Part shown: piece by piece, positions 9,538-38,622 of the stretch
Position numbering within the stretch: the stretch's first letter is position 1
Layout of the letters: each line of letters opens with the position of its first letter
Assembly (NCBI RefSeq): GCF_027947595.1
Contig: NZ_CP116257.1
Location: 3,534,001-3,598,000 of the forward strand
Origin: Streptomyces lienomycini
GTDB taxonomy: Bacteria; Actinomycetota; Actinomycetes; Streptomycetales; Streptomycetaceae
Reading direction: 5' to 3'
DNA: 64,000 bases
Notes under the pieces: model-generated
What the model was told of the DNA's origin: nothing
Database searches by the model: none
Seen by the model: only the letters and a program-made list of their open reading frames with translations
Program-made: the position numbers and the translations under genes

Positions 9538-11131
9538 CGAGGACAAGACCCCACGGAAACCGTCGGCCCCGACATGGACCCGCTCCGGGCTGGGCGCGCT
9601 GAGCGGGCTCCTGGCGGGCGGCGCCGCGCTGGCCGTCGCCGAACTGGTGGCGGCGGCCGTACGCCCGGAGGCGGGCCCGGTCGTCGCGGTGGGCGGGGCC
9701 GCCATCGACCGCACGCCGATCGCCCTGAAGGACTGGGCGATCCGCACCTTCGGCACCAACGACAAGCTGGTGCTCCAACTCGGCATCCTCGCGGTCCTGA
9801 CGCTGCTGGCCCTGGCCCTCGGAGCGCTCGCCGCCCGCCACCGGCGCAGTGGTGCCGCCGGGGTCCTGGTCTTCGGCGTCGTCGGCGCGACGGCGGCGCT
9901 CGGCAGGCCCGACTCCACCGGTGTCACGGACGCCTTCCCCTCCGTCCTGGGGGCGGTCGCGGGCGCCGTCCTCCTGTACGTCCTCGTCGGGCTCCTCCCG
10001 CCGCCGCGCCGGGCGGAGCCGGGAGAGCGGGGCGAGGGCTGGGACCGCCGCCGTTTCGTCGTCGCGGCGACCGCCGCGGCCGCCGCCTCCGCGGGCGCCG
10101 GCGTCCTGGGCCGGGCCCTGAGCGGGGCCGGCGGCCGGGACGCGGTCGCCTCCCGCAAGAACGTCGCCCTCCCGGCGCCCGGCTCACCGGCCCCCGCGGT
10201 GCCCCGGCGGGCACAGGTCGGGGTGGAGGGGGTCAGCCCCTTCGTCACGCCCAACGGCGACTTCTACCGGGTCGACACCGCCCTGGTGGTCCCCAAGGTG
10301 GACGCCACCGCCTGGCGGCTGCGCATCCACGGCGACGGGGTCAGCAGGGAGAAGACGCTGACCTTCGACGACCTCCTGCGACGGCGGCTGATCGAGCGGG
10401 ACATCACCCTCACCTGCGTGTCCAACGAGGTGGGCGGCCCGTACGTGGGCAACGCCCGCTGGATCGGCGTCCGGCTCGCCGACCTGCTGGCGGAGTGCGG
10501 CGTCCGTCCGCCGTCGAAGGGCGGCCCGGCGGACCAGCTGGTGGCCCGCTCCGTGGACGGCATGACCATCGGCAGTCCCGTCGAGGACGTCATGGACGGC
10601 CGCGACGCCCTGCTCGCCGTCGGCATGAACGGCGAGCCCCTGCCGTTCGAGCACGGATTCCCCGTCCGCATGCTCGTGCCCGGCCTCTACGGCTACGTCT
10701 CGGCCTGCAAGTGGATCGAGGACATCGAGCTGACCACGTTCGACGCCTACGACTCGTACTGGGTCAAGCGCGACTGGGCCCCCGAGGCGCCGATCAAGAC
10801 CCAGTCCCGGATCGACACCCCGAAGCCCTTCGCCCGGCCGAAGGCGGGCACGGTGATGGTCGCCGGAGTCGCCTGGGCCCAGCACCGCGGCATCGACAAG
10901 GTCGAGATCCGCGTCGACGACGGCCCCTGGCAGGAGGCCACCCTGGCCGCCGAGGACTCGCGCGACACCTGGCGCCAGTGGTCGTACGCCTGGCAGGCCA
11001 CCAAGGGCGGCCACACCCTCACCGTGCGGGCCACCGACCGGACCGGCGAGGTGCAGACCGAGAAGCGCACCCGCACGGTGCCCGACGGTGCGAGCGGATG
11101 GCACTCGGTGGTGGTGACGGTCGACGCCTGA
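9530..11131 (+). CDS. membrane-anchored sulfite-oxidase-like molybdoenzyme
   Basis: 533 residues from a GTG inside the end of the hydrolase gene. Four hydrophobic segments fill residues 20-160, followed by a basic stretch and a second hydrophobic Ala-rich segment near 190. The catalytic part starts near 225 and has the Moco-domain Cys296 in ITLTCVSNEVGG, the motif GMNGEPLPFEHGFPVR near 370, and a C-terminal Ig-like dimerisation domain (VEIRVDDGPWQEA). This order matches actinobacterial sulfite-oxidase-like oxidoreductases with an N-terminal membrane region. The catalytic domain is probably outside the membrane; RRRF at residues 167-170 may be a remnant of a Tat-like signal. The natural substrate of this subgroup is not established. 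Confidence 0.85.
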   Translation: MSDEDKTPRKPSAPTWTRSGLGALSGLLAGGAALAVAELVAAAVRPEAGPVVAVGGAAIDRTPIALKDWAIRTFGTNDKLVLQLGILAVLTLLALALGALAARHRRSGAAGVLVFGVVGATAALGRPDSTGVTDAFPSVLGAVAGAVLLYVLVGLLPPPRRAEPGERGEGWDRRRFVVAATAAAAASAGAGVLGRALSGAGGRDAVASRKNVALPAPGSPAPAVPRRAQVGVEGVSPFVTPNGDFYRVDTALVVPKVDATAWRLRIHGDGVSREKTLTFDDLLRRRLIERDITLTCVSNEVGGPYVGNARWIGVRLADLLAECGVRPPSKGGPADQLVARSVDGMTIGSPVEDVMDGRDALLAVGMNGEPLPFEHGFPVRMLVPGLYGYVSACKWIEDIELTTFDAYDSYWVKRDWAPEAPIKTQSRIDTPKPFARPKAGTVMVAGVAWAQHRGIDKVEIRVDDGPWQEATLAAEDSRDTWRQWSYAWQATKGGHTLTVRATDRTGEVQTEKRTRTVPDGASGWHSVVVTVDA

Positions 11132-23288: not shown

Positions 23289-25835
23289 TCACGGGAACTG
23301 CACGACCTTGGACGGCACGGTGTCCGTCCCCGACGTTCCGGCGCCGGTGTCGTTGACGACATGGCGGTACTGGCCCATGCCGCCCAGCGAGATCACCTGG
23401 AGGTTGCGCATCCTGACCCCCGGCTTGACCGGCACCTGGAACCCGTGCTGCTGGACGATGCCCGGGTCGGCCGTGAAGTTGCAGTAACTGCCCAGCGCCA
23501 CCGCGTCGTGCACGTTCACCGAGTCGGCGACCTTGTAGGCCGCGTAGCCGACGATGCCGTCGTGGGTGATGGCGGCCTCGTTCGGGGCGTCGTAGGCCTT
23601 CTCGTTCTGGAAGAAGACGGTCCGGCCGCGCTCACCGTTCCAGTAGACGTCGTACTTGTTGAAGTGCTCGACGAACAGTCCCGTCGCGAGGACGTCGTCG
23701 CCGTTGACCCGGAGGCCGTAGTCGGCGCGGTTGGTCTCCCAGCCGACGCCCTCGCCGTGGTCGGCCCGCCAGATCCAGGTGTGGTCGATGACGACGTCGT
23801 CGCTCTCGACCACGACGGAGTCGGTCGCCTTGCCCGGTCCCGCGCCGCCGACGCGGATGAACACGTCCTGCATGGTCGTCGGGTTGGCGGAGTGGTCGGC
23901 GTTCCCGCCCGGGGTGCCGATGCGCAGCAGCGTGTCGGAGTTCACCGGACCGGCGTCGATGAGGAAGCCCGCGAGCCGCACGCCGTCGACGTCGGCCACG
24001 TGCATGGCGTCCACGCCGCCGTCCGGGACGATCGTGGCCAGACCGAGCCCCAGCACCACGGTGTTCGCCCGGTCGACCTCGATGGTCTGGTCGATGTGGT
24101 GGACACCCGGCGTGAACAGCAGGTTGAGCCCCTGGTCGAGGGCGGCGTTGATGGTCGCCGCGGTCGCGCCGGGCTTGACGACGTAGAACTGGCTGAGCGG
24201 CAGCGAGGTGCCCCCGGCGTTCGCCGGCCAGGAGACGCCGCGCGCGTTGGTGCGCTTGGCGGGCACGCGCACCTTGTACTCGTCGCCGTCCAGGTAGAGG
24301 AAGGGCTTCTCGCGCGAGATCGGCGTGGTGTCGAGCGTCGTGTACGGGCCGGTCTCGAAGTTGCTCGCGGGGGCGCCTTCGACGCCGGTGAACGTCATGT
24401 TCCAGACGCCGTTGGTCCAGCCGCCGACCGAGCTGTCCCGGGTGTACCACTGCTGCTGGGAGTAGGGGCCGACGGTCCCGTCGATCTTCGAGTCGGCGAT
24501 GTAGCCGCCGGAGGCCCAGCCGTAGCCGTTGGGCGCGAGGTTGAGACCGCCCTTGACGTGTATGCGCCGGAACGGGGCGGCCTGGGCGACGGCCCAGCGG
24601 TCGGTGCCGTTGGACGGCGTGATGGCGAGGTTCTCGGCCGAACGCCAGAAGTTCTGTGTCGCGTTGCCGTTGAACCAGCCCGCGTCCACGGTGATGTCAC
24701 CGTTGATCTGCGTGTCGTCCGGGTTGAGGCCGAGACCGGAGATCGAGGTGTAGAAGCCCAGTTGGGCGTTGATCCCGTTGTAGGTGCCCGGCTTCAGCAG
24801 GAACTGGTAGCGCCCGCTGCCGAACTGGTTGGACTCCTGCTGGGCGAAGACCTGGTCGAACCTCTGCTGGAGGTTCGGCGTGGAGGGGTCCACGACGATG
24901 ACGTTCGGCCCCAGGTCGCCGCCGCCTTCCACCGGGGGAGTGCCGGTGGTGCCGGTGTGCACGGCGACCTCCCACAGCGAGTAGCCGTAGCCGGTGGCAC
25001 GGGCCGTGCCGTGGACGCGGACGTAGCGGCCGGAACCGCTGACGTCGTAGGAGGACTTGCCCCCGGTGGCGCCCGTGACGCTCTTCAGCGTCTGCCAGTT
25101 CTGCCCGTCAAAGGACGCCTCGATCCGGAAGTCCTTGGCGTAGGCGGCCTCCCAGTTCAGGTCCACCTCGCACAGGTCCTTCACGGAGCCCAGGTCGACC
25201 CGCACCCACTGCGGGTCGGCGGCCTGGCTGGACCAGCGGGTGCCGGGGTCGCCGTCGAAGGCCGCGGCGGCCGGTGTACCGGCGTTCTCGACGGAGGAGG
25301 CCGAAGCGGGCCTGCCCTGCGCGGCGTCGGCGGTGTCGCAGGAGCCGCCCGGCGTGGCGCCGCCGGCGGTGCCGAAGACCTGGAACTCCCAGAGGGAGTA
25401 GCCCCACGGGGTGGCCCGGTGGACGCCCTGCATCCGGACGTAGCGGCCCTGGCCCGAGACGTCGAGCGAGTCGGTGCCGCCGTCGCCGCCGGTGACGGTC
25501 TTCGCGTCGCTCCAGGTGCTCCCGTCCGGGGAGAGCTGGATCTTGTAGTCCTTGCCGTAGGCCGCCTCCCAGTCGAGCACGACCCGGGTGACGGTGGCGG
25601 TGGCGCCGAGGTCGACCTGGAGCCACTGGTCGTCGCTCGCGGCGGACGACCACCGGGTGTTCGTGTCGCCGTCGACGGCGTTGCCGGACGGGGTTCCGGC
25701 GTTCTCGGCCGACGACGACGTGGCCGTCCGGCCCTGGGAGAGGGGGGTGTCGGCCGCGGTGGCCGTCATCGGGGCGGGGAGGGTGACGAGTGCCGCCGTG
25801 GCGACGAGCGCGACACCCAAGGATCTCAGTCTCAT
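23289..25835 (-). CDS. secreted two-F5/8C-module beta-helix protein
   Basis: 848 residues with a clear signal peptide (MRLRSLGVALVATAALVTLPAPMTATAAD). Two F5/8-type C modules follow (about 35-160 and 180-310). Both carry NAGTPSGNAVDGDTNTRWSS-like openings and YSLWEFQVFG or YSLWEVAVHT endings, typical of CBM32-like galactose-binding folds. The remaining 530 residues have the Asn/Asp/Gly ladders of a right-handed parallel beta-helix (for example TVVLGLGLATIVPDGGVDAMHVADVDG). Related Streptomyces proteins have been labelled adenylyl cyclase or coagulation-factor-like; I would not use those names. It is probably a polysaccharide-active enzyme. The catalytic family is not certain. Confidence 0.75.
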   Translation of the reverse strand: MRLRSLGVALVATAALVTLPAPMTATAADTPLSQGRTATSSSAENAGTPSGNAVDGDTNTRWSSAASDDQWLQVDLGATATVTRVVLDWEAAYGKDYKIQLSPDGSTWSDAKTVTGGDGGTDSLDVSGQGRYVRMQGVHRATPWGYSLWEFQVFGTAGGATPGGSCDTADAAQGRPASASSVENAGTPAAAAFDGDPGTRWSSQAADPQWVRVDLGSVKDLCEVDLNWEAAYAKDFRIEASFDGQNWQTLKSVTGATGGKSSYDVSGSGRYVRVHGTARATGYGYSLWEVAVHTGTTGTPPVEGGGDLGPNVIVVDPSTPNLQQRFDQVFAQQESNQFGSGRYQFLLKPGTYNGINAQLGFYTSISGLGLNPDDTQINGDITVDAGWFNGNATQNFWRSAENLAITPSNGTDRWAVAQAAPFRRIHVKGGLNLAPNGYGWASGGYIADSKIDGTVGPYSQQQWYTRDSSVGGWTNGVWNMTFTGVEGAPASNFETGPYTTLDTTPISREKPFLYLDGDEYKVRVPAKRTNARGVSWPANAGGTSLPLSQFYVVKPGATAATINAALDQGLNLLFTPGVHHIDQTIEVDRANTVVLGLGLATIVPDGGVDAMHVADVDGVRLAGFLIDAGPVNSDTLLRIGTPGGNADHSANPTTMQDVFIRVGGAGPGKATDSVVVESDDVVIDHTWIWRADHGEGVGWETNRADYGLRVNGDDVLATGLFVEHFNKYDVYWNGERGRTVFFQNEKAYDAPNEAAITHDGIVGYAAYKVADSVNVHDAVALGSYCNFTADPGIVQQHGFQVPVKPGVRMRNLQVISLGGMGQYRHVVNDTGAGTSGTDTVPSKVVQFP

Positions 25836-26045
25836 GCGTGGGCTTTCTGCGGTAGCGGACAGGACCGGGCAACCGCCGGACACAGCGGCTTAGTTCAAGG
25901 TGTGATTTAAGTGGTGAGGCATGAATCCGGCAAGACTTCGGGCACGACTTGTCAGTGCCGTACTGAAGAATGCGGTCCATCGAGATCAACTCCGGCCGGA
26001 CCGGGTAGGCGTTCTCGAGTCACTGACCTGGAAAGGCCACAGCCG

Positions 26046-29222: not shown

Positions 29223-29657
29223 CTGGCCGCTCGCCGGGACGTGATGCTCACGCGGAGACGCTATCGCCGCCCCCGCGCCGGTGTCAGGAGCCGTGGAGGC
29301 AGAAGGAGCTGCCCGAACGGGCACGGCGGGCGGCGCGGGACGGACCGCGGGCCGGGGCGGGACGGACCGCGGGCCGGCAGCCCATGGGCCTCGGTACACG
29401 CCCCGCACGGCCCGTCCCCCGGGGCGCGCGCCGTCCCGGCGCCCCCCACTCCCGGGAATGCTCCCGTCCGCCGACCGGGCGACGGCACCGGGCGAGACTC
29501 GGGGGCCGGATGTCCCCCGGCGGGGCGTGGGTGAAAGGTTCGCGCCGGTCGGCGCGCGCCGGGTCTGGCAGGCGGCCGGTTACTCCGATAGCTTGCTGGT
29601 GCGGCCCCGCGTTCTCCCCCGTACGCGGGGCCGCACCAGCGCGGCCGGGTGCCCGGC
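29223..29657. other. intergenic region upstream of the M23 gene
   Basis: 435 bases. Apart from the strong terminator at 29595-29640, it holds Gly/Pro/Arg-coding shadow frames and presumably the M23 promoter, which I could not place. If the M23 start is earlier than 29222, up to 186 bases here would be coding. Confidence 0.4.
29595..29640. terminator. strong terminator after the GH4 operon
   Basis: A perfect 17-bp stem (29595-29611 with 29624-29640) around a 12-base loop, 17 bases beyond the GH4 stop codon. It closes the sugar operon. Confidence 0.85.
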
Positions 29658-30983
29658 TCAGAGAGCGAGTTCGGTGCGCAGCGCCGGTTGCAGCAGGTCC
29701 CCGTGGGCGCGGACCATGTCGTCGCACAGCTGCCAGATCTCTTCGACCCTGAGCGTCGCCGCCGTCGCCGGGTCGGCCATCGCGGCGTGCCTGACGTGCC
29801 GCGGTTCGTCCTGAGTGGCCGCCCGCACCACCAGGTCGGTGGTGCTCAGGTAGGCCCGGTTGAGGGCCGCCAACTGCGGGGGCAGCGCGCCGACACGGGT
29901 GGGCTGGACGCCCGACGCGTCGACCAGGCACGGCACTTCGACGGTGCCCCGGTCGGGAAGGTTCTCGATCAGACCGTGGTTGGGCACGTTGCCGTAGACC
30001 GTGCGGGGCGTGCCGGTCACGATGCTGTGGATGATCTGCGGCGCGTACTCCATGGTGCCCTCGACGGTGAGCGGTGCCCCGCAGGCCAGCGCGTCGCGGG
30101 TCCGCTCGTACTCGGCCACGTTCTCGTCCACGATGCCCAGGTAGGCGCCGACCGGAAGCCGCAGCCGGTCGATCTCGCTGTCGTGGTGCAGGTACCAGGG
30201 GACGTACTCGGAGGAGTGCTCGCTGGTCTCCGTCGGGTAGTGGCCCAGGCGCCGGTACATGTCCATGCGGACCCGGCGGCGCAGTTGCGGGTCCTCGGCG
30301 ATCAGGGCGTCGAGGCGGGGGTGGAGGTCCTCGCCCCCGTGCTCCAGGCGCAGTACCCACGCCTGGTGGTTGACACCGGCCGCCTGGTAGGTGACCTCCT
30401 CGTAGGGGACCTTCAGCAGCTCGCACAGGTCCTGGATCGTCCAGTAGACGGAGTGGCACAGTCCCACCACCCGCGTCAGACCGGTCGCCTCCGCGAGGTA
30501 CTGGACGTTCATCGCCATCGGGTTGGTGTAGTTGAGCAACCAGGCGTCCGGGCAGACCTCCGCGATGTCCCGCCCGAGCGCTTCGAGCAGCGGGAAGGTG
30601 CGCAGCGCGCGGAAGATGCCGCCGACGCCGAGGGTGTCGCCGATGGTCTGGCGCAGCCCGTACCGGGCGGGCACGTCGAAGTCGGTACGGGTCGCCTCGC
30701 CCATGCCGACCTGCACGATGTTGATGACGAAGTCCGCGCCGGCCAGGGCCTCGCGGCGGTCGGCGTGCGCGGTGACGCGCGGTCGGGCGCCGCGTTCGGC
30801 GGCGATGTACTCGGCGGCGGCCCGCGCGGTGGCCAGCCGCTCGGCGTCGATGTCGTGCAGCGCGATGTGCGCGGACTTCAGCTCGTCGAACGCGAAGAGG
30901 TCGGCGAGCAGGCCCTGGGTGAAGACGACGCTGCCTGCTCCGACGAAGGTGATCTTGGGCGCGGTCGGGTGGGCGGTGCTCAT
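29658..30983 (-). CDS. GH4 family glycosidase (alpha-galactosidase/glucosidase type)
   Basis: 441 residues, full length. The N-terminal Rossmann fold reads KITFVGAGSVVFTQGLLADL, followed by LNYTNPMAMN (substrate and NAD region). Mn(II) ligands are probably the Cys in GLCHSVYW and the His in GVNHQAW. The family cleaves alpha- or beta-glycosides through NAD-dependent oxidation/elimination. The ALHDID and TNPMAMN variants fit the alpha-galactosidase/alpha-glucosidase branch. There is no signal, so it acts on imported sugar. Its start overlaps the PfkB stop by 4 bases; it is the last gene of the GH114-ABC-kinase operon. Confidence 0.9.
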   Translation of the reverse strand: MSTAHPTAPKITFVGAGSVVFTQGLLADLFAFDELKSAHIALHDIDAERLATARAAAEYIAAERGARPRVTAHADRREALAGADFVINIVQVGMGEATRTDFDVPARYGLRQTIGDTLGVGGIFRALRTFPLLEALGRDIAEVCPDAWLLNYTNPMAMNVQYLAEATGLTRVVGLCHSVYWTIQDLCELLKVPYEEVTYQAAGVNHQAWVLRLEHGGEDLHPRLDALIAEDPQLRRRVRMDMYRRLGHYPTETSEHSSEYVPWYLHHDSEIDRLRLPVGAYLGIVDENVAEYERTRDALACGAPLTVEGTMEYAPQIIHSIVTGTPRTVYGNVPNHGLIENLPDRGTVEVPCLVDASGVQPTRVGALPPQLAALNRAYLSTTDLVVRAATQDEPRHVRHAAMADPATAATLRVEEIWQLCDDMVRAHGDLLQPALRTELAL

Positions 30984-31936
30984 GCGGGGTTCTTTCCGTT
31001 GCGGGTGACCTGGGCGAACGCTTCGTCCCAGGTGGGCTGGGCGGTGGTGCCGCCGTGCGCGCGGGTGGACAGCGCGCCGCAGACGGCGGCGAGTTCGAGG
31101 GCCTCGGGAAGGGCGAGCCCGGCGAGGAGCGCGGCGACGAAACCGGCGTCGAAACTGTCACCGGCCCCCACCGTGTCGACGGACCGGGCCGGGATGCCGG
31201 GCGTGCTGAGCAGGGTGCGCCCGTCGTGGCACAGGGCGCCCTCGGCGCCGTTCTTGACGACGACCGTCGGCCCCCGGTCGGCGAGCGCGGCGGCCGACTT
31301 CCCGAGGTCCGGGGTGTCGAGTCCGGCGAGCCGCCGGGCCTCGGCCGCGTTGGGCAGCAGGTAGTCGGTGTGCGGGAGCACGGCGTCCAGGCCCGCCGGG
31401 TCCCAGCGGCCGGACGGGTCGTCGTTGGTGTCCAGGGACGTCGTCGCGCCGTGGGAACGGGCGGTGCGCAGCAGCTCGGGCAGCGAGGCGGCGAGTGCGG
31501 GCAGCAGGAAGTACGACGCGGCGTGCACGTGCCGGACGCCGCTCAGCAGCTCGGCCGGGACGTCCGCCGCCGTGGTGGCCGGCAGCGTGCCAGGCGCCGT
31601 GACGATGGCGCGGTCCTCCCCCTGGGTCAGGACGACGGTGAGGGGCGTGGGCAGCCCCGGATCGGTGTGCAGGGCGCGGGTGTCCACGCCGCGGGAGTCG
31701 AGGGCGGCGCGGATGTAGCGGCCGGCGTCGTCGTCGCCGACGCGGCCGGCGAAGGCGACCCGCAGGCCGAGGCGGGCCGCGCCGCACGCCATGATGGCCG
31801 CGGAGCCGCCGAGGGTGAGGGCACCGTCGGACACGAGCTGTTCGCGCTGGCCGAAGGCGAGCGGCGCGTCGAGCGGTCCGAGGACGACGTCGGGATTGGC
31901 GTCCCCGACGACGAGCAGGTCGAAACTGTGCGACAT
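30980..31936 (-). CDS. PfkB-family sugar kinase
   Basis: 318 residues. Motif 1 is LTLGGSAAIMACGAARLG with the GG hinge near residue 43. The catalytic motif 2 is DTVGAGDSFDAGF with the base Asp in GAGDSF. The N-terminal VVGDANPDVVLG fits ribokinase-like sugar kinases. It is probably cytoplasmic and would phosphorylate the sugar released by the GH4 enzyme, perhaps galactosamine, tagatose or a related hexose; the sequence does not decide this. It lies 55 bases after the second permease gene and overlaps GH4 by 4 bases. Confidence 0.9.
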   Translation of the reverse strand: MSHSFDLLVVGDANPDVVLGPLDAPLAFGQREQLVSDGALTLGGSAAIMACGAARLGLRVAFAGRVGDDDAGRYIRAALDSRGVDTRALHTDPGLPTPLTVVLTQGEDRAIVTAPGTLPATTAADVPAELLSGVRHVHAASYFLLPALAASLPELLRTARSHGATTSLDTNDDPSGRWDPAGLDAVLPHTDYLLPNAAEARRLAGLDTPDLGKSAAALADRGPTVVVKNGAEGALCHDGRTLLSTPGIPARSVDTVGAGDSFDAGFVAALLAGLALPEALELAAVCGALSTRAHGGTTAQPTWDEAFAQVTRNGKNPA

Positions 31937-31991
31937 GGGTCTTCCCTGAGGTGACAGCGGAGGAGGCGAAGGCCGGCGTCAGCCGCGGGCG

Positions 31992-32882
31992 TCAGCCCTT
32001 GAGTCCGCTGGAGGTGATCGACTGGATGAAGGTCTTCTGCGCGCCGAGGAAGGCGAGCAGCACCGGAAGCACGGTGATGACGTTGCCGGCCATCACGGCG
32101 GCCCACTGCGTGTGGTGCTGCCCCTGGAAGGTGGTCAGGCCCAACTGCAGCGTGTACTGCGTGTCGTGGTTGATGGCGATCAGCGGCCAGGTCAGGTCGT
32201 TCCACGTGGTCAGGAAGGTCAGGACGGCCACCGTGCTCAGCGCCGGGCGGGACAGCGGCAGCACGATGCGCCACAGCACCCGCAGCCGGGAACAGCCGTC
32301 GATCCAGGCGGCCTCCTCCAGCTCCCTGGGCAGCGAGAGGAAGAACTGCCGCAGCAGGAACACCGCGAACGGCGTCACCAGCGAGGGCACGATCAGCGCG
32401 CCCAGGGTGTCGATGAGGCCGAGCTTCTTCATCACCAGGAACGTCGGGATCATCGTCAGCTGGAACGGCACGGCCATGGTGGCCAGCATCAGCCCCATCA
32501 GCACCCGGGAGCCAGCGAAGCGCATCCTGGCGAAGGCGTACCCGGCCAGCGAGCCGAAGACGAGGTTCGCGGCGACCGTGACGGCGGAGACGATCAGCGA
32601 GTTGACGAACCAGCGGGGGAACATCGCGTTGCCCAGCACGTACCGGTAGCCGCCCAGGTCGATGCCGGACGGCCACAGGGCCGGCGGGAACCGGTTGATC
32701 TCCGCGTTGCTCATCACCGAGCTGAGCAGCAGCCAGACAAGCGGTACGGCGAACACGAGGGCGAGCGGCGCGAGCAGCAGGTGCCAGGGGCTGAACGGGA
32801 GCCGCGGGCGGCGCCGTTCGACGGCGGCCGGCTCCGAGGCCGAAGCGCTCGCCGTACCCGGTCGGGTGGTGGTCGCCGTCAT
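31992..32882 (-). CDS. ABC sugar permease, MalG type
   Basis: 296 residues starting MTATTTRPG, overlapping the first permease stop. About six membrane helices are present. The EAA loop reads EEAAWIDGCSRLRVLWRIVLP near residue 200, the contact site for an MsiK-like ATPase, and the ending FIQSITSSGLKG is standard for the MalG side. The operon has no ATPase gene, as is typical in Streptomyces, where one shared MsiK energises many sugar importers. It imports an oligosaccharide together with the upstream permease and lipoprotein. Confidence 0.93.
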   Translation of the reverse strand: MTATTTRPGTASASASEPAAVERRRPRLPFSPWHLLLAPLALVFAVPLVWLLLSSVMSNAEINRFPPALWPSGIDLGGYRYVLGNAMFPRWFVNSLIVSAVTVAANLVFGSLAGYAFARMRFAGSRVLMGLMLATMAVPFQLTMIPTFLVMKKLGLIDTLGALIVPSLVTPFAVFLLRQFFLSLPRELEEAAWIDGCSRLRVLWRIVLPLSRPALSTVAVLTFLTTWNDLTWPLIAINHDTQYTLQLGLTTFQGQHHTQWAAVMAGNVITVLPVLLAFLGAQKTFIQSITSSGLKG

Positions 32883-33829
32883 GATCGGGCCCCTTCGAGA
32901 CGGTGGCGTCCCCGACGCCGGACGATGCGGACGGCCCCGGCGACCACACCGAGGGCGACGGCCAGGACGTACGCGGCCGAGGCCCCGTATCCGGCGGTGG
33001 CGTTCTTGAACGCCTGCTCCCAGATGAAGTAGACGATCACCGTGGTGGAGCCGAGCGGACCGCCCTTGGTGGTGACGTACACGAGGTCGAAGACCTGCAG
33101 GGACTGGATGGCCTGCCACAGCACCAGGAAGACCGTGACCGGCGTGAGCGTGGGCAGGGTGACGTGGCGCAGCAGGTGCCTGCGCCCGGCGCCGTCGAGG
33201 CGGGCCGCCTCGATCAGGGACTGCGGCACGTCCTGGAGAGCGGCGAGGTAGACGACGACGCAGAACCCGGTGCCGCTCCACAGGGTGATCGCCACCAGCA
33301 CGAGGAGCGCCTGGGACGGATCGGACAGGAAGCCCTGCGACGAGACGCCCAGGCGGTGCAGCACCGAGTTGGCGGCGCCGAACTCCGGGTCCAGGATGAA
33401 GGAGAACAGCACGCCCTGCGCGGTCGCCGACAGCACGAACGGCACGAAGATCAGGGTGCGGTAGAGGCCGACCAGGCGGATGCGCCGGTTCAGCACCAGG
33501 GCGAGGGCCAGGCCGAACAGCAGGCTCAGCGGCACGTACAGCACCGTGTAGAGCAGGGTGTTGCGGACCGCCTGGCTGAAGTTCGGGTCCTGGGCGAGGG
33601 CACGGTAGTTGTCCAGGCCGACCCAGCGGCTGGGCGTCACCAGGTCACTGGCCTGGAAGGACAGCAGCAGCGACCAGATCACCGGGACGATGCTCAGCCC
33701 GAGGACGATCAGGACCGCCGGTGAGACGAACGCCCAGGCCGTGCCGGTCTCGCGCCGGCGCTTGCGGCGCAGGGCGCGCGGGTCGGGCGGCGGGCCGTCG
33801 ACGGTGATGGGGCGGGGGAGGCGCGGCAT
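32879..33829 (-). CDS. ABC sugar permease, MalF type
   Basis: 316 residues starting MPRLPRPIT; the open frame extends far upstream, antisense to the binding-protein gene. The first helix follows a basic tail (RRKRRRETGTAWAFVSPAVL). The EAA loop reads IEAARLDGAGRRHLLRHVTLP. Six helices are visible. The 14-base gap to the binding protein gene and the 4-base overlap with the second permease gene tie the three import genes together. Confidence 0.93.
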   Translation of the reverse strand: MPRLPRPITVDGPPPDPRALRRKRRRETGTAWAFVSPAVLIVLGLSIVPVIWSLLLSFQASDLVTPSRWVGLDNYRALAQDPNFSQAVRNTLLYTVLYVPLSLLFGLALALVLNRRIRLVGLYRTLIFVPFVLSATAQGVLFSFILDPEFGAANSVLHRLGVSSQGFLSDPSQALLVLVAITLWSGTGFCVVVYLAALQDVPQSLIEAARLDGAGRRHLLRHVTLPTLTPVTVFLVLWQAIQSLQVFDLVYVTTKGGPLGSTTVIVYFIWEQAFKNATAGYGASAAYVLAVALGVVAGAVRIVRRRGRHRLEGARS

Positions 33830-33843
33830 GGCGGTGTGGCTCC

Positions 33844-35172
33844 TCAACGCGGAATGAGCAGGGCGGCGTTGGCTTCGTCGGCGCAGGCACGCAGCGCCTT
33901 CTCGGGCGTGCTGCGCCCCAGGAGCACGGCGACGATCGCCTGCCCGAGCGCCTGCGAGACCTCCGGGTACGCCGGGTGGACGGGGCGCACACGCGCCGTC
34001 TCCAGCGCGGTGGTGAACACGGCCAGGCCCTCCGTGCGGGCGACCTTGTCCTGCCACTGGGGCAGGCCCTCGGTGCGGCGGCTGAGCGGGAGGCTGCCGG
34101 CCTCGATGTCCCAGCGCACGTCCTGCTCCGGCCGGGCCAGCCAGGTCAGGAAGGTGCGGGCGGCCTCGGACCGGGCCTCGCCGTTGTCGAACACCGTCCA
34201 GGTGTCCGGCCCCGAGATGGTGACCGGGCGGCCGCTGAAGGAGGGCAGGGGAGCGACGTGGTAGTCGATTCCGGCGGTCTCGATGTCGGGCAGCTGCCAC
34301 GGCCCGGTGACCACCATGCCCATGCGGCCGGACTGGAACACCTGGTACATCTGCTCGCTGCCGGGCTTGGGATCGACGTACACGCTCTCGTCGCGGGCCA
34401 GGTCGGACACCACCTCCAGCGCCCGGGCGCCGGTGTCGGCGAAGCCGATGCCCTTGCCGCTGTCGTCGACGACGTCGCCGCCCAGGTCCCAGATCAGCGG
34501 CCACAGCCGCCACACGGTGTCCTCGTCGCCCGTGCCCGGCCAGCCGGTGCCGAACCGGCCCCGGCCCGACTCGGTGAGCGTGCGCGCCGAGGAGACGAAG
34601 TCCTCCCAGGTCCAGCCGGCCTCCGGCAGCGCCAGCCCGGCCTCGCGGAACAGCTTCCTGTTGCAGACCACGGCGAGCGAGTCGAGCACCGCCGGGGCGG
34701 CCCTGACCCTGCCGTTGAGCGTGACGGCGTCCCTGGAGGCCGCCCAGTAGTTCTTCCACGGAACGGGTCCCGAGCCGACCATGTCGGTGAGGTCCACGAC
34801 CTGCGGACTGCGGGCGACCCGGGCCAGGTCCGACCCGAAGATGTAGGCGATGTCGGGGTAGGAGCCGGCGGCGAGGGCGGCGGTCACCTTCTGCAGCATC
34901 ACGTCCGACAGCACCCCGCCGCCCAGCTTCACCCTGATCTTCGGGTGGGCCCGCTCGAAGTCGGCGACGAGCCCCTCCAGGACCTTCTTCGCCGTGTCCG
35001 CCTGGCCGTGCCACATCTCGACGGTGACCGTGCCGTCGGCCGCGACGCCGTCGTCCGTACCGGCCCCGCAGCCGGACACCGCGGTGCCCGCGACCGCGGC
35101 GAGGGCGGCACCCCCGCCGGCCCGCAGCACACCCCTGCGCGAGGGACGCGCGGCACGTCGGACCGCAACCAT
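33844..35172 (-). CDS. sugar-binding lipoprotein of the ABC importer
   Basis: 442 residues from the ATG of MVAVRRAARP with a strong GGAGGTGGAG site. It has a twin-arginine lipoprotein signal (SRRGVLRAGG) ending in VSGC, so Cys35 would be lipidated. The mature part is a family 1 solute-binding protein (TVTVEMWHGQADTAKK, DFERAHPKIRVKLGGG, SYPDIAYIFGSD). It captures the sugar at the outer membrane face. It follows the GH114 gene by 37 bases. The sugar cannot be read from the sequence; the context argues for galactosamine- or galactose-containing oligosaccharides. Confidence 0.93.
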   Translation of the reverse strand: MVAVRRAARPSRRGVLRAGGGAALAAVAGTAVSGCGAGTDDGVAADGTVTVEMWHGQADTAKKVLEGLVADFERAHPKIRVKLGGGVLSDVMLQKVTAALAAGSYPDIAYIFGSDLARVARSPQVVDLTDMVGSGPVPWKNYWAASRDAVTLNGRVRAAPAVLDSLAVVCNRKLFREAGLALPEAGWTWEDFVSSARTLTESGRGRFGTGWPGTGDEDTVWRLWPLIWDLGGDVVDDSGKGIGFADTGARALEVVSDLARDESVYVDPKPGSEQMYQVFQSGRMGMVVTGPWQLPDIETAGIDYHVAPLPSFSGRPVTISGPDTWTVFDNGEARSEAARTFLTWLARPEQDVRWDIEAGSLPLSRRTEGLPQWQDKVARTEGLAVFTTALETARVRPVHPAYPEVSQALGQAIVAVLLGRSTPEKALRACADEANAALLIPR

Positions 35173-35209
35173 CTCCACCTCCAAGGACTTCACTTGCCGT
35201 CGGGCGGGA

Positions 35210-36037
35210 TCAGCAGGTCTCACGTACGTAGCCGCTGCTGCCCTTCGGCGACACGTCCAGGTCGCGCCGGACGATGCTCAGCTCGTCGCCGAATCCCGCG
35301 CACGCCTTCGACAGGCCCTTGGCGGTGTACTCGACGACGATCACGCGGTCGCCGAACTCGGCCGTGTAGTCGCCGCACTCGTCCCACTCGCCGCACTCCT
35401 CGGCGACCGCGAAGTCCAGCCCGTTCTCCTCGCGGTTCGGGGCCAGTTCGACGGTGTTCTTCTGCCCGATGGCCAGGCCGTCGGAGTGCGCGCGCTCCGC
35501 CAGCAGCCTGATCAGCCCCTGGGCGTCGGCGGAGTCCAGCAGGTCGCCCGCGCGGGTGTAGCTGTCGTAGTTGTCCGGTTCGACGGCCTGGAAGCCCTTG
35601 TCCGCACAGCCGTCGATCCACGTGCCGACCTTCTCGGCGATCCGCTCGCGCTTGTCGGCGGTGCGGATGTCGAGGAAGGCCTCGCCCCAGTCGGTGTCGT
35701 AGACGACGTCGCCGTTCGCGTCGCGCAGCAGCAGGTCGTCGTCCCAGTCGCCCTCGGCGCCGGGCTGCGCCTGGTAGGCGTTGACGTAGCAGATGTTGTA
35801 CAGGCCCTGCGCGGGGGAGGCCGAGTGGTCGCGGCTGACCACCTGCACACCGGCCGGCGGGGTGTAGGCGCCGCCGATCTGGTAGTCGAAGCCCGCGTGC
35901 GCGGGAGGCGGGGTGTAGGTGGCCGCCTCGGCCGGGGTGCTGCCCGGGACGAGCGCGGCGGCGGTGACGAGGACCGCGGTGGCGCATACGCCGGCCAGCA
36001 CCGGCTTCTTGGGGGTGTACCCCTGGACACGGCTCAT
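35210..36037 (-). CDS. secreted GH114 endo-alpha-1,4-polygalactosaminidase-like enzyme
   Basis: 275 residues with a signal peptide (VLAGVCATAVLVTAAAL, cleavage near AEAATY, residue 38). The mature part matches the GH114 TIM barrel: FDYQIGGAYTP, ICYVNAYQAQPG, FLDIRTADKRERI, EPDNYDSYTR and GLDFAVAEECGEWDEC. GH114 hydrolyses alpha-1,4-linked polygalactosamine, including de-N-acetylated galactosaminogalactan of Aspergillus. Six Cys in the domain suggest three disulfides. As first gene of the operon behind a good promoter, it would make the oligosaccharides that the following ABC importer takes up. This is the key clue to the operon function. Confidence 0.85.
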   Translation of the reverse strand: MSRVQGYTPKKPVLAGVCATAVLVTAAALVPGSTPAEAATYTPPPAHAGFDYQIGGAYTPPAGVQVVSRDHSASPAQGLYNICYVNAYQAQPGAEGDWDDDLLLRDANGDVVYDTDWGEAFLDIRTADKRERIAEKVGTWIDGCADKGFQAVEPDNYDSYTRAGDLLDSADAQGLIRLLAERAHSDGLAIGQKNTVELAPNREENGLDFAVAEECGEWDECGDYTAEFGDRVIVVEYTAKGLSKACAGFGDELSIVRRDLDVSPKGSSGYVRETC

Positions 36038-36409
36038 GGTTCGAGCTCCGGAGGGTGGTGGGCACGTCCCCGCCTCGGACGCGCGTGGCGGGTCCTGGCG
36101 ACTCAGTCCGGGCTCCTGGCGCGAAGCCAGCTACCGGCTGGGCGTACCTCTGCCGCCGATCACGGGCATCGGCGTTGATCGGGAGTAAATCGACCGGGTC
36201 CGTCCCCTGTCAAGAGTTCGAAACGAGAGAGCTGGTGCACGAACTTGATCGAAGGTGGCCTATTCGATGCAGAATCAATCATGATGCGTCGGCCCCAGGA
36301 CGCCCGGGAAAGATGGATACGGGCCGGGTGGGAGCCGTGATCACCGAGCTTCCACCGGGCTGGTAGCGTCGCGTGGTCGCGGCGGGCGGCGCGAGAGAGG
36401 TGTCGGTGC
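36038..36409. other. promoter region of the GH114 operon
   Basis: 372 bases. Besides the promoter listed next, it is locally AT-richer (36180-36300) with several TTCGA/GATCGA words that may form a repressor site (for example GTTCG near 36216 and CGAAC near 36240 in inverted orientation). No regulator gene is adjacent. No coding frame is supported. Confidence 0.45.
36184..36214 (-). promoter_or_regulatory. sigma-70-like promoter of the GH114 operon
   Basis: On the minus strand, a consensus TTGACA (36209-36214) is followed by an 18-base spacer and TTTACT (36184-36189), about 150 bases before the GH114 start. Confidence 0.6.
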
Positions 36410-36631
36410 GTGGGAGAGCGGCAGGACCGTGAGTGGGTGGCGATGACGCCGGGCGACTTCGACCGGGACGCCCCGCTGGTCCTCAACGTGGGCACCGGAC
36501 CCGCCACCGTCCCCGCCGAGCCCGACGAGTACGGCACCGCCCCGCTGTTCGGCGAGACGGCGCCGGAGCCCAGTGCCCGGCCGCGCAACCGGCGAGGACG
36601 GCCCGCGCCCGGTCAGGAGCGGCTGTTCTGA
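36410..36631 (+). CDS. small acidic hypothetical protein
   Basis: 73 residues from a GTG with GAGAGG nine bases upstream; an ATG at 36443 is an alternative. The N-terminal part is acidic (MTPGDFDRDAPLVLNVGTG) and the C-terminal part basic and Pro/Arg-rich, ending GQERLF. There is no membrane segment. The family is not recognised. It is divergent from the GH114 operon, with about 370 bases between. Confidence 0.5.
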   Translation: MGERQDREWVAMTPGDFDRDAPLVLNVGTGPATVPAEPDEYGTAPLFGETAPEPSARPRNRRGRPAPGQERLF

Positions 36632-36649
36632 CCGTCCCCGCCGGGCATC

Positions 36650-37010
36650 ACGGGCCGGACACCTCGTCCACGAACCCGTTACCAGGCGGCGCGGTACCCG
36701 GCGACCCCGGCCGCGACCCCGGCCGTTCGGGCAGGTACCGCGCGCCATGCGTGCCGAACGGCCGCCCGTCCGCGGTGTAGGTGATGGCGCTGTCGTCGAT
36801 CGCCGCCACCAGCGGGTAGTCGTCGCTCTGCCGCAGCGTCTGTCAGTCGCTCGGGTGGAAGCGCGGTTGCGGGTCGCCGGTGTCCGCGCCGGGCGCCGAG
36901 GTGAAGCCGGTCCCCAGGTGGCGGTCGGCCGTCGCCGTCGGGCTGCCCGGGGGCTTCACCACCAAGGATCCGGTCACCCTCTCGACGTGCGGGGTGGTGC
37001 GGGGCGGAAT
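36650..37010 (-). pseudogene. decayed 3-prime gene fragment with internal TGA
   Basis: On the minus strand one frame keeps strong Streptomyces codon bias (almost every third base G or C) on both sides of a TGA at 36843-36845. Upstream it reads VTGSLVVKPPGSPTATADRH and then GDPQPRFHPSD; downstream it reads QTLRQSDDYPLVAAIDDSAI and then ADGRPFGTHGARYLPERPG before a stop at 36650. A Trp codon mutated to TGA is the simplest explanation. No start or upstream domain is visible, so it looks like the tail of a lost gene. The family is not recognised. Confidence 0.4.
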
Positions 37011-37058
37011 ACGGCGGCACCTTCGGGATCTTCGGCACCTTCCACCCTTGCGGGTGCG

Positions 37059-37142
37059 CGGAAGTGCTCGGAAGTGCTTCGCATCGAGCACGTATTGACA
37101 TGTCACGGCTGACCCCGCAGAGTCATGCCCCGACAGTGCTCG
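37059..37142. repeat. repeat cluster upstream of the GH109 gene
   Basis: Tandem direct repeat CGGAAGTGCT twice (37059-37078). GTGCTCG at 37064-37070 and 37136-37142, with its complement CGAGCAC at 37085-37091. These flank the TTGACA at 37095 and could be operators. Confidence 0.4.
37095..37123 (+). promoter_or_regulatory. candidate promoter of the GH109 gene
   Basis: TTGACA (37095-37100), 17-base spacer, CAGAGT (37118-37123), 78 bases before the start. The -35 box overlaps the palindrome TGACATGTCA (37096-37105). Confidence 0.45.
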
Positions 37143-37200
37143 ACAACGCCCGACCGTGCCCCGACCGTGCTGCCCGAAGCCCACGAGGAGTGTTGCCGTC

Positions 37201-38622
37201 ATGTCCGAACCCCCCGCTGTCTCACGCCGTCTGCTCCTGGGCTCGGCCGCCGCCACCGGCGCGCTCGCGACCGGGATGGGCGCCGCCGCACCGTCCGCGT
37301 CGGCGGCCGGGCGGGCGCCCCGCCGCAAGCCCGGCCAGAAGTCGATGATCGGCGTCCCCTTCGACGTCCACGGAACCGTCCGCGTCGGCGTCATCGGCCT
37401 CGGCAACCGGGGCGGCGGCATGATCACCGGCTGGGCCGCCGTGCCCGGCTGCACCGTGACCGCCGTCTGCGACATCCGCGCCGACCGGGCCAGGAGCGCC
37501 GCCGACCGCCTGGAGAGCAAGGGCAACCCGCGCCCCGCCGAGTACGGCGGCTCCGCCGACTCCTACGCCCGCATGCTGCGACGCGACGACATCGACCTCG
37601 TCTACGTCGCCACCCCCTGGGAGTTCCACTACGAGCACGGCCGGGCCGCCCTGCTCAGCGGCAGGCACGCCGTCGTCGAACTCCCCGTCGCGACCGAACT
37701 GCGCCAACTGTGGGACCTCGTCGACACCTCCGAGCGCACCCGCAGGCACCTGCTCCTGTCCGAGAACTGCAGCTACGGCCGCAACGAACTGGCCATGCTG
37801 AACGCGGCGCACGACGGCCTGTTCGGAGAGATCACCAACGGCCACGGCGGCTACCTCCACGACCTGCGCGAACTCCTGTTCTCCGACACCTACTACACCG
37901 ACTCCTGGCGCCGGCTCTGGCACACCCGCAGCACCGCGTCCTTCTACCCCATGCACGGGCTCGCCCCGATCGCGGCCGCCATGGACGTCAACCGCGGCGA
38001 CCGCATGACGACCCTGAGCGCCACCGCCACCGCCCCGAAGGGACTGGCCGACTACCGCGCCCGCTTCGTCCCCCGGGACCATCCGTCCTGGAAGGAGACC
38101 TACGTCAACGGCGACCTGGTCACCTGCATGATCGAAACGGCCAGGGGACGGACGATCCGCGCGGAGCACGACGTCAGTTCGCCCCGGCCCTACAGCCGCA
38201 TCAACACCCTCGCCGGCAGCCGCGGCATCGTCGAGGACTACGCCGGTCCGGCACCGACGGGCGCCCGCGTCTACGTGGAGCCGGACCACAGCGGCCACAC
38301 CTGGCGCGACTTCGAGGGCTACCGCAAGGAGTACGACCACTGGCTGTGGCGGAAGGTGGGCGACGACGCCGCGAACAACGGCGGCCACGGCGGCATGGAC
38401 TACGTCCTGCAGTGGCGCACCGTCCAGTCGATGCGGGCGGGCCTCGTGCCGGACATCGACGTCTACGACTCGGCCGCCTGGTGCTCGGCCGTCCCCCTCA
38501 GCGTCACGTCCCTGGCCCGCGGCGGCCGCCCCGTCGAGATCCCCGACTTCACCCGCGGCGCCTGGCGCGAGCGCAGGCCCGGCCTCGACTCGGCGCCCAC
38601 CGACATGCCGCCGCTGGGCTGA
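37201..38622 (+). CDS. Tat-exported GH109 alpha-N-acetylgalactosaminidase-like protein
   Basis: 473 residues, ATG after a GAGGAG site. The Tat signal is SRRLLLGSAAATGALATG with Arg9-Arg10. The Rossmann fold reads VGVIGLGNRGGG (62-73), then VTAVCDIRADRA. The downstream blocks match GH109: DIDLVYVATPWEFHYEH, LSENCSYGRNELAMLN, GGYLHDLRELLFSD and YPMHGLAPIAAAMDVNRGDR. The family removes alpha-linked GalNAc using a tightly bound NAD, which explains folding before Tat export. It stands 1.1 kb from the GH114 operon, on the other strand. The pairing of an endo-polygalactosaminidase with an exo-GalNAcase supports a shared target polymer. Confidence 0.88.
   Translation: MSEPPAVSRRLLLGSAAATGALATGMGAAAPSASAAGRAPRRKPGQKSMIGVPFDVHGTVRVGVIGLGNRGGGMITGWAAVPGCTVTAVCDIRADRARSAADRLESKGNPRPAEYGGSADSYARMLRRDDIDLVYVATPWEFHYEHGRAALLSGRHAVVELPVATELRQLWDLVDTSERTRRHLLLSENCSYGRNELAMLNAAHDGLFGEITNGHGGYLHDLRELLFSDTYYTDSWRRLWHTRSTASFYPMHGLAPIAAAMDVNRGDRMTTLSATATAPKGLADYRARFVPRDHPSWKETYVNGDLVTCMIETARGRTIRAEHDVSSPRPYSRINTLAGSRGIVEDYAGPAPTGARVYVEPDHSGHTWRDFEGYRKEYDHWLWRKVGDDAANNGGHGGMDYVLQWRTVQSMRAGLVPDIDVYDSAAWCSAVPLSVTSLARGGRPVEIPDFTRGAWRERRPGLDSAPTDMPPLG

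Follow-up and report, generated by a model that had tools for sequence, protein, structure and literature searches.

Glycoside hydrolase family 114 (GH114) is known from polymer synthesis, and its fungal members Ega3 and FsGH114 are endo-alpha-1,4-galactosaminidases. Here we describe a GH114 gene of Streptomyces lienomycini (assembly GCF_027947595.1, contig NZ_CP116257.1) in a six-gene operon with a sugar ATP-binding cassette (ABC) importer, a PfkB-family kinase and a GH4 glycosidase. The operon lies in a stretch of 64,000 nucleotides (the window), which is positions 3,534,001-3,598,000 of the single 7.86-Mb chromosome; coordinates below count from its first letter unless the chromosome or another locus is named. 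With a probability of about 0.76, we read the operon as a system for the utilisation of alpha-1,4-galactosamine-rich oligosaccharides or polymer. This reading is based on gene content, conserved linkage, active-site residues, fold match and motif conservation.

The window GH114 shares family, fold and the catalytic Asp and Glu with Ega3 and FsGH114, and a loop Trp is common to it and Ega3, whereas FsGH114 has Tyr (PMC12054363). Ega3 is a fungal enzyme acting in the maturation of galactosaminogalactan (GAG), whereas the window GH114 is a bacterial protein, of the type named B here, in a putative catabolic operon with an importer. In the bacterial Agd3/GH114 exopolysaccharide operons, GH114 also stands next to carbohydrate enzymes, but those operons combine a glycosyltransferase, a membrane protein and a CE18 deacetylase for biosynthesis, in contrast to the importer, GH4 and kinase of the window (PMC7229062). 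The aga loci for N-acetylgalactosamine (GalNAc) and galactosamine (GalN) have in common with the present system a DeoR-type AgaR regulator and, on the route given in PMC5583593, a SIS deaminase (AgaS) and the tagatose-6-phosphate kinase and aldolase steps. Uptake by the phosphotransferase system is prominent in aga loci (PMC5583593), whereas here we find ABC import of oligosaccharides, GH4, secreted GH114 and GH109 candidates, and SIS proteins outside the AgaS model. An endogalactosaminidase of Streptomyces griseus (Reissig 1975) is known as an activity alone; no sequence exists according to PMC12054363, and it may or may not be an A- or B-type GH114. The aga pathway type is known elsewhere, and we know of no earlier example that joins it to GH114, GH4 and an oligosaccharide importer. 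Among the literature matches listed, whose scope excluded subscription journals and preprints, there was no description of a catabolic GH114 locus or of a Streptomyces GalN pathway.

The GH114 protein and its operon

The GH114 gene (35210-36037, minus strand) encodes a candidate secreted endo-alpha-1,4-galactosaminidase that matches PF03537 with 185 bits against a cut-off of 27. The original prediction made the assignment depend on the family active-site residues, and the alignment has them in place: the nucleophile D155, the acid/base E213 and the loop residue W117 align with D189, E247 and W154 of Ega3, and the catalytic Asp and Glu are kept in all 36 aligned GH114 rows. The best matches of the structure model are endo-alpha-galactosaminidases, and the model agrees with the Ega3 fold, while the closest named homologues come from Streptomyces. 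The two characterised GH114 enzymes reported in PMC12054363, Ega3 and a Pseudomonas enzyme, both act on galactosamine polymers, and selected bacterial GH114 proteins could not be made there in usable soluble form. A second GH114 copy of the same genome, of the A type, lies at 6.056 Mb (9719-10531 of locus L174) in an unrelated context.

Five further genes follow GH114 on the minus strand. They encode the solute-binding lipoprotein of a sugar ABC importer with a visible lipobox (33844-35175), MalF-type (32879-33829) and MalG-type (31992-32882) permeases, a PfkB-family kinase (30980-31936) proposed to act on galactosamine or tagatose-6-phosphate, and a nicotinamide adenine dinucleotide (NAD)-dependent GH4 alpha-glycosidase (29658-30983). 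The successive gaps are only 34, 14, -4, 55 and -4 bp, and the six genes therefore form one operon (29658-36037), from which an ATPase gene is absent. GH4 falls into the alpha-galactosidase subgroup, with 585 bits against the NCBIfam PRK15076 cut-off of 486 and a CHSV motif, presumably the mark of that subgroup, which is invariant in 12 of 12 sequences. A perfect 16-bp inverted repeat 3' of GH4 (29596-29611 and 29624-29639, minus strand), read by eye, is a possible terminator; a scan for consensus promoters and terminators called none, including at this repeat.

Conservation of the operon

The compact operon with a nearby GH109 gene had been predicted from the window, and all its genes were found in place. 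Its conservation was followed in stretches of up to 20 kb around 80 of about 120 B-type GH114 places, with several places near contig ends and the lowest-identity rows omitted. The operon genes recur in 16 of the 80 loci, 14 of them complete and colinear (the stretch of L066 ends early and is completed by L175). Of the other two, the close relative L062 passes from MalG directly to GH4 without PfkB, and L127 is split, with a divergent GH114. As GH114 identity in these loci falls to 54% and the flanking genes vary, the block apparently travels in one piece. Seen from the kinase, PfkB was detected at E 1e-75 in 21 of 199 Streptomyces genomes, and B-type GH114 adjoins it in 16, our own genome included. 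The linkage expected by the original prediction thus exists for the GH114 operon in a subset of genomes; for GH109 it does not extend beyond close relatives. One operon carries a second GH114 gene 3' of GH4 (L064). In addition, a Gfo/Idh/MocA oxidoreductase other than GH109 recurs beside the operon (L175, 4960-6201, and five further loci) and is possibly another NAD-dependent glycosidase.

Beyond Streptomyces, GTDB genomes were scanned with the PfkB alignment, and partners in the best 80 loci were recorded at E 1e-8, with weak matches included and some contigs short. GH114 occurs in 24 of them (18 B-type, 6 A-type), together with GH4 in 45, SIS in 43, DeoR in 37, class II aldolase in 23 and a second, LacC-like kinase in 20. 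In three Lentzea loci, GH114 is divergent from an array of binding protein, MalF, MalG, SIS, LacC-like kinase, aldolase, GH4, PfkB and DeoR genes. The A-type GH114 shares a stretch with PfkB in two Nonomuraea and four Chloroflexota loci, with GH4 also present in all except the short L232. Two GH114 types are therefore joined to the same partners.

Several neighbours in these loci were recorded on their own account. GatZ/KbaZ is a subunit of tagatose-bisphosphate aldolase, and one Mycolicibacterium locus (L254) encodes a candidate for it, with 557 bits, just short of the 568.8 of TIGR02810, and 546 against 26.7 for PF08013. A 541-aa protein without Pfam match lies in a galactosamine locus (L266, 17064-18689), and a similar-looking 549-aa protein in L277. 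In Actinoplanes (L225, 5442-8698), two DUF4832 proteins stand beside GH4 and PfkB, one with a sub-threshold CBM6 match. Six acidobacterial loci have PfkB with SIS and/or DeoR matches, some of them weak, no GH4 or GH114 being found in them; they are perhaps other aminosugar loci.

Catabolic partner genes

In some relatives the Streptomyces operon itself extends into catabolic genes. Genes for a SIS-domain protein and a class II aldolase prolong it in genome G021 (L069), a SIS gene does so in G100, and SIS and aldolase genes lie divergently upstream in G084; furthermore, 6 of the 16 operons have a DeoR-type regulator gene next to them. The AgaR model is the best match for four of five DeoR proteins and the second-best for the fifth. 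Among the models, those of the GlmS/GlmD aminosugar-phosphate type come closest to the SIS proteins, all five LacC-like kinases pass the broader TIGR03168, and the three aldolases match fructose/tagatose-bisphosphate models.

The S. lienomycini genome has neighbouring SIS (4,889,077), aldolase (4,888,205) and DeoR genes; counted singly, SIS homologues occur in 186 and aldolase homologues in 190 of the 199 Streptomyces. At 7.435-7.440 Mb it has a sugar-binding protein, a ROK kinase, NagA (266 bits against 226) and a LacC-like kinase. With these two loci, every pathway step has a candidate gene in the genome. NagA of S. coelicolor acts on GalNAc-6-phosphate, and Streptomyces NagS is described as MurQ-related and located beside dmdR1 (PMC12680351). 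The SIS protein of the present system is probably distinct from NagS.

An operator-like motif shared by GH114 and GH109

The SIS promoters of nine genomes contain common TGCTTGAnnnTGCTCGAAAG-like words with two half-sites 10 bp apart. They were taken from eight of ten returned SIS loci (two of operon type being omitted) and from our own genome, whose word is identical to two others; the alignment by eye gave seven distinct 20-base seeds, from which a weight matrix was built. The best match in the 64-kb window lies upstream of GH114 (36262-36281, minus strand, 20.4 bits), accompanied by a second site (36236-36255, plus strand, 13.9 bits). No column-permuted matrix (0 of 1000) reaches 20.4 bits in the GH114 promoter, and 6 of 3000 random 383-bp windows do so in the scanned set, which contains true sites. 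Only 10 matches of at least 17 bits were found in 3.39 million positions, nine of them in galactosamine-locus stretches, including the DeoR-SIS site of our own genome; seven of the nine are intergenic and two lie inside coding regions (L062 11142 and L127 11490). Upstreams of GH114 reach at least 13 bits in 5 of 19 rows from operon loci versus 0 of 58 others.

A third site is located 146 bp upstream of GH109 (37055-37074, plus strand, 13.5 bits), at a position roughly conserved in orthologues. Among the 30 loci nearest to the window protein, itself included, of 92 GH109 places, 26 upstreams reach 13 bits at -106 to -170, and all 30 best matches have the same orientation; random 350-bp windows of the GH109 loci reach 13 bits in 7% of cases, true sites included. 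Of 210 gene upstreams in GH109 loci, 25 have at least 13 bits, and 23 of these belong to GH109 or to DeoR-SIS-aldolase clusters. A chromosome-wide pattern gave four matches versus two for its reversed control; two of the four are the GH109 and DeoR-SIS sites, with which known the pattern was drawn, so that it shows only the scarcity of other sites, and the remaining two fall within or close to genes with no apparent relation to the system. We infer that the DeoR protein binds this motif. An AgaR-like motif of the E. coli kind (CGTTTCG and similar) was dropped as operator candidate: CGTTTCG was confined to the window, L102 and the close relative L062, and the SIS promoter of our own genome lacks it.

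The GH109 gene itself (37201-38622, plus strand) is a candidate alpha-N-acetylgalactosaminidase with a twin-arginine (Tat-type) leader read by eye; 1,163 bp separate its start from that of GH114, which lies on the opposite strand. Its product matches the C-terminal domain PF21252 with 180 bits, and among solved structures comes closest to 6t2b, a GH109 enzyme, and 2ixa, an alpha-N-acetylgalactosaminidase. The original prediction had counted this nearby GH109 as a member. Proximity did not hold as a ground: only three of the 80 B-type GH114 loci have GH109 nearby, two of the three being close relatives, GH109 is near PfkB in 1 of the 80 other loci of the GTDB scan, and adjacency was dropped as evidence in favour of motif and clustering. 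Within 20 kb of 14 GH109 loci, six of which were picked for SIS or aldolase genes nearby, DeoR was found in nine and SIS in seven. GH109 is probably part of the GH114 regulon, because the motif lies upstream of both genes and GH109 clusters with DeoR-SIS-aldolase genes in some other Streptomyces; a single AgaR-like repressor would then probably govern both genes. A secreted-looking protein of about 290-333 aa adjoins GH109 in ten loci, and the one in L326 has no NCBIfam match.

Proposed pathway and alternative explanations

On the reading that the operon serves the use of alpha-1,4-galactosamine-rich material, the secreted GH114 would cut the chains into oligosaccharides, and GH109 would take off terminal alpha-GalNAc extracellularly. 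The binding lipoprotein and MalF/MalG would import the oligosaccharides with an ATPase encoded elsewhere, MsiK, which is usually shared among Streptomyces sugar importers. Inside the cell, GH4 would free the non-reducing alpha-linked sugar (Gal or GalN), and GalN would be phosphorylated by the operon PfkB; the ROK kinase encoded elsewhere could serve GalNAc, with NagA as deacetylase. The SIS-domain protein would then lead to tagatose-6-phosphate, which the LacC-like kinase would phosphorylate and the class II aldolase split. PfkB is taken as the galactosamine kinase and the LacC-like protein as the tagatose-6-phosphate kinase because both sit together in Lentzea. From the conserved motif, the DeoR/AgaR-like repressor beside SIS and aldolase may control those genes, the GH114 operon and GH109. 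The earlier proposal, in which polymer is used through GH114 outside the cell, an importer, and GH4 and kinase inside it, is supported by the active site, the linkage in a subset of genomes and the catabolic genes in relatives' loci, and has lost its suggested CBM32 component.

Several observations weigh against this reading. We know of no biochemical data on B-type GH114, and GH4 scored as an alpha-galactosidase, not a galactosaminidase. The operon is lacking in 64 of the 80 B-type loci, PfkB stands without adjoining GH114 in 5 of its 21 genomes (in one, G168, the contig ends), and the SIS, aldolase and DeoR genes do not adjoin the window operon. The partner proteins miss the specific cut-offs: 181-212 bits against 260 for AgaR NF040755 (five DeoR proteins), 25-35 against 529 for AgaS TIGR02815 (five SIS proteins), 136-175 against 410 for lacC TIGR01231 (five kinases) and 189-217 against 443.55 for TIGR01858, the catalytic subunit of tagatose-bisphosphate aldolase (three aldolases). 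Of these aldolases, two pass the general ketose-bisphosphate model TIGR00167 alone and the third stays below every NCBIfam cut-off, so that by these scores a fructose route is also compatible. Only some of the operons carry the motif: 12 of 17 operon loci, the window included, have no match of at least 13 bits upstream of GH114, among them all 6 that have a DeoR gene of their own next to the operon and 6 of the 11 that have none. The motif is also weak at the window GH109 gene and reaches only 10.8 bits at the NagA-LacC locus.

Some of these points would suit an ordinary alpha-galactoside operon for raffinose, melibiose or a galactomannan fragment, in which GH4 splits the substrate, PfkB phosphorylates the product and GH114 is a passenger. 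The score above the cut-off of the MelA-type alpha-galactosidase subfamily, the mere ~30% identity of the genome's two other GH4 genes to that of the operon and the PfkB genomes without adjoining GH114 agree with it. We nevertheless regard it as unlikely: GH114 is linked in 16 of the 21 PfkB genomes, in Nonomuraea and Chloroflexota PfkB-GH4 has the second GH114 type as a linked partner, and an aminosugar-type SIS protein, an AgaR-like DeoR and a motif shared with GH109 are unexpected for plain galactose. Turnover of a Pel- or GAG-like polymer made by the Streptomyces itself appears slightly less probable again, even though Streptomyces are reported to have polysaccharides that contain galactosamine, and GH114 genes occur in bacterial exopolysaccharide operons (PMC7229062). 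The operon lacks a glycosyltransferase, and a search for CE18 Agd3 in the 199 genomes, which did not cover other deacetylase or synthase types, found none in the genome of the window, further weakening this explanation, and weak matches in three others, one over the cut-off. Two of these Agd3-like matches (L285 and L287, in G083 and G012) lie about 4.4 kb from A-type, not B-type, GH114, as in published biosynthetic operons. As a further alternative, the operon might import other GalNAc or GalN glycans, for instance O-glycans or polymers of the cell wall, and the target of GH114 would be an alpha-galactosaminide not yet recognised. This would fit GH109 and the DeoR-SIS-LacC-aldolase cluster, which point to GalNAc in general, and the identity of only 23-27% between B-type GH114 and solved members. 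It is very improbable given that the key residues are kept and that both characterised enzymes act on galactosamine polymers (PMC12054363).

For the galactosamine-rich substrate of the preferred reading, fungal GAG, bacterial Pel and a self-made polymer fit equally by sequence. Galactose is a component of GAG and absent from Pel (PMC12054363); GAG would therefore be favoured if GH4 is a true alpha-galactosidase, and Pel fits equally if it is an alpha-galactosaminidase. That fungal GAG is the main substrate, as first proposed, is possible, and we hold it with clear doubt. Somewhat stronger, yet still a little short of even odds, is the broader proposal of a widespread actinobacterial regulon, chloroflexotal with the second GH114 type, that eats neighbours' alpha-galactosamine biofilm polymers. 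It would comprise secreted GH114 and GH109, a dedicated oligosaccharide importer, an intracellular GH4 exo-alpha-galactosaminidase, a PfkB galactosamine kinase, a non-AgaS SIS deaminase and one AgaR-like repressor over them all. If true, GH114 would for the first time have a role in catabolism, and soil bacteria would have a means of stripping the GAG of fungi or the Pel of bacteria. Such a locus would explain the GH114 genes in many Streptomyces and supply GAG- and Pel-degrading enzymes, and the A- and B-type genes would be two candidate gene types for the orphan S. griseus endogalactosaminidase. The predicted new activities are the galactosamine kinase, the exo-alpha-galactosaminidase GH4 and the SIS deaminase, plus the regulator with its operator.

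A neighbouring GH55-type protein

The protein encoded at 23289-25883 has two F5/8-C (CBM32-like) modules and had been thought to add binding or debranching to the system. It is a homologue of the secreted protein 4pew, which we take to be a GH55 laminarinase, and thus a GH55-type beta-1,3-glucanase homologue; only one of the 80 B-type GH114 loci has such a protein nearby, and it was rejected as a part of the system. Similar CBM32 modules occur in solved 'Glucanase/chitosanase' chains.

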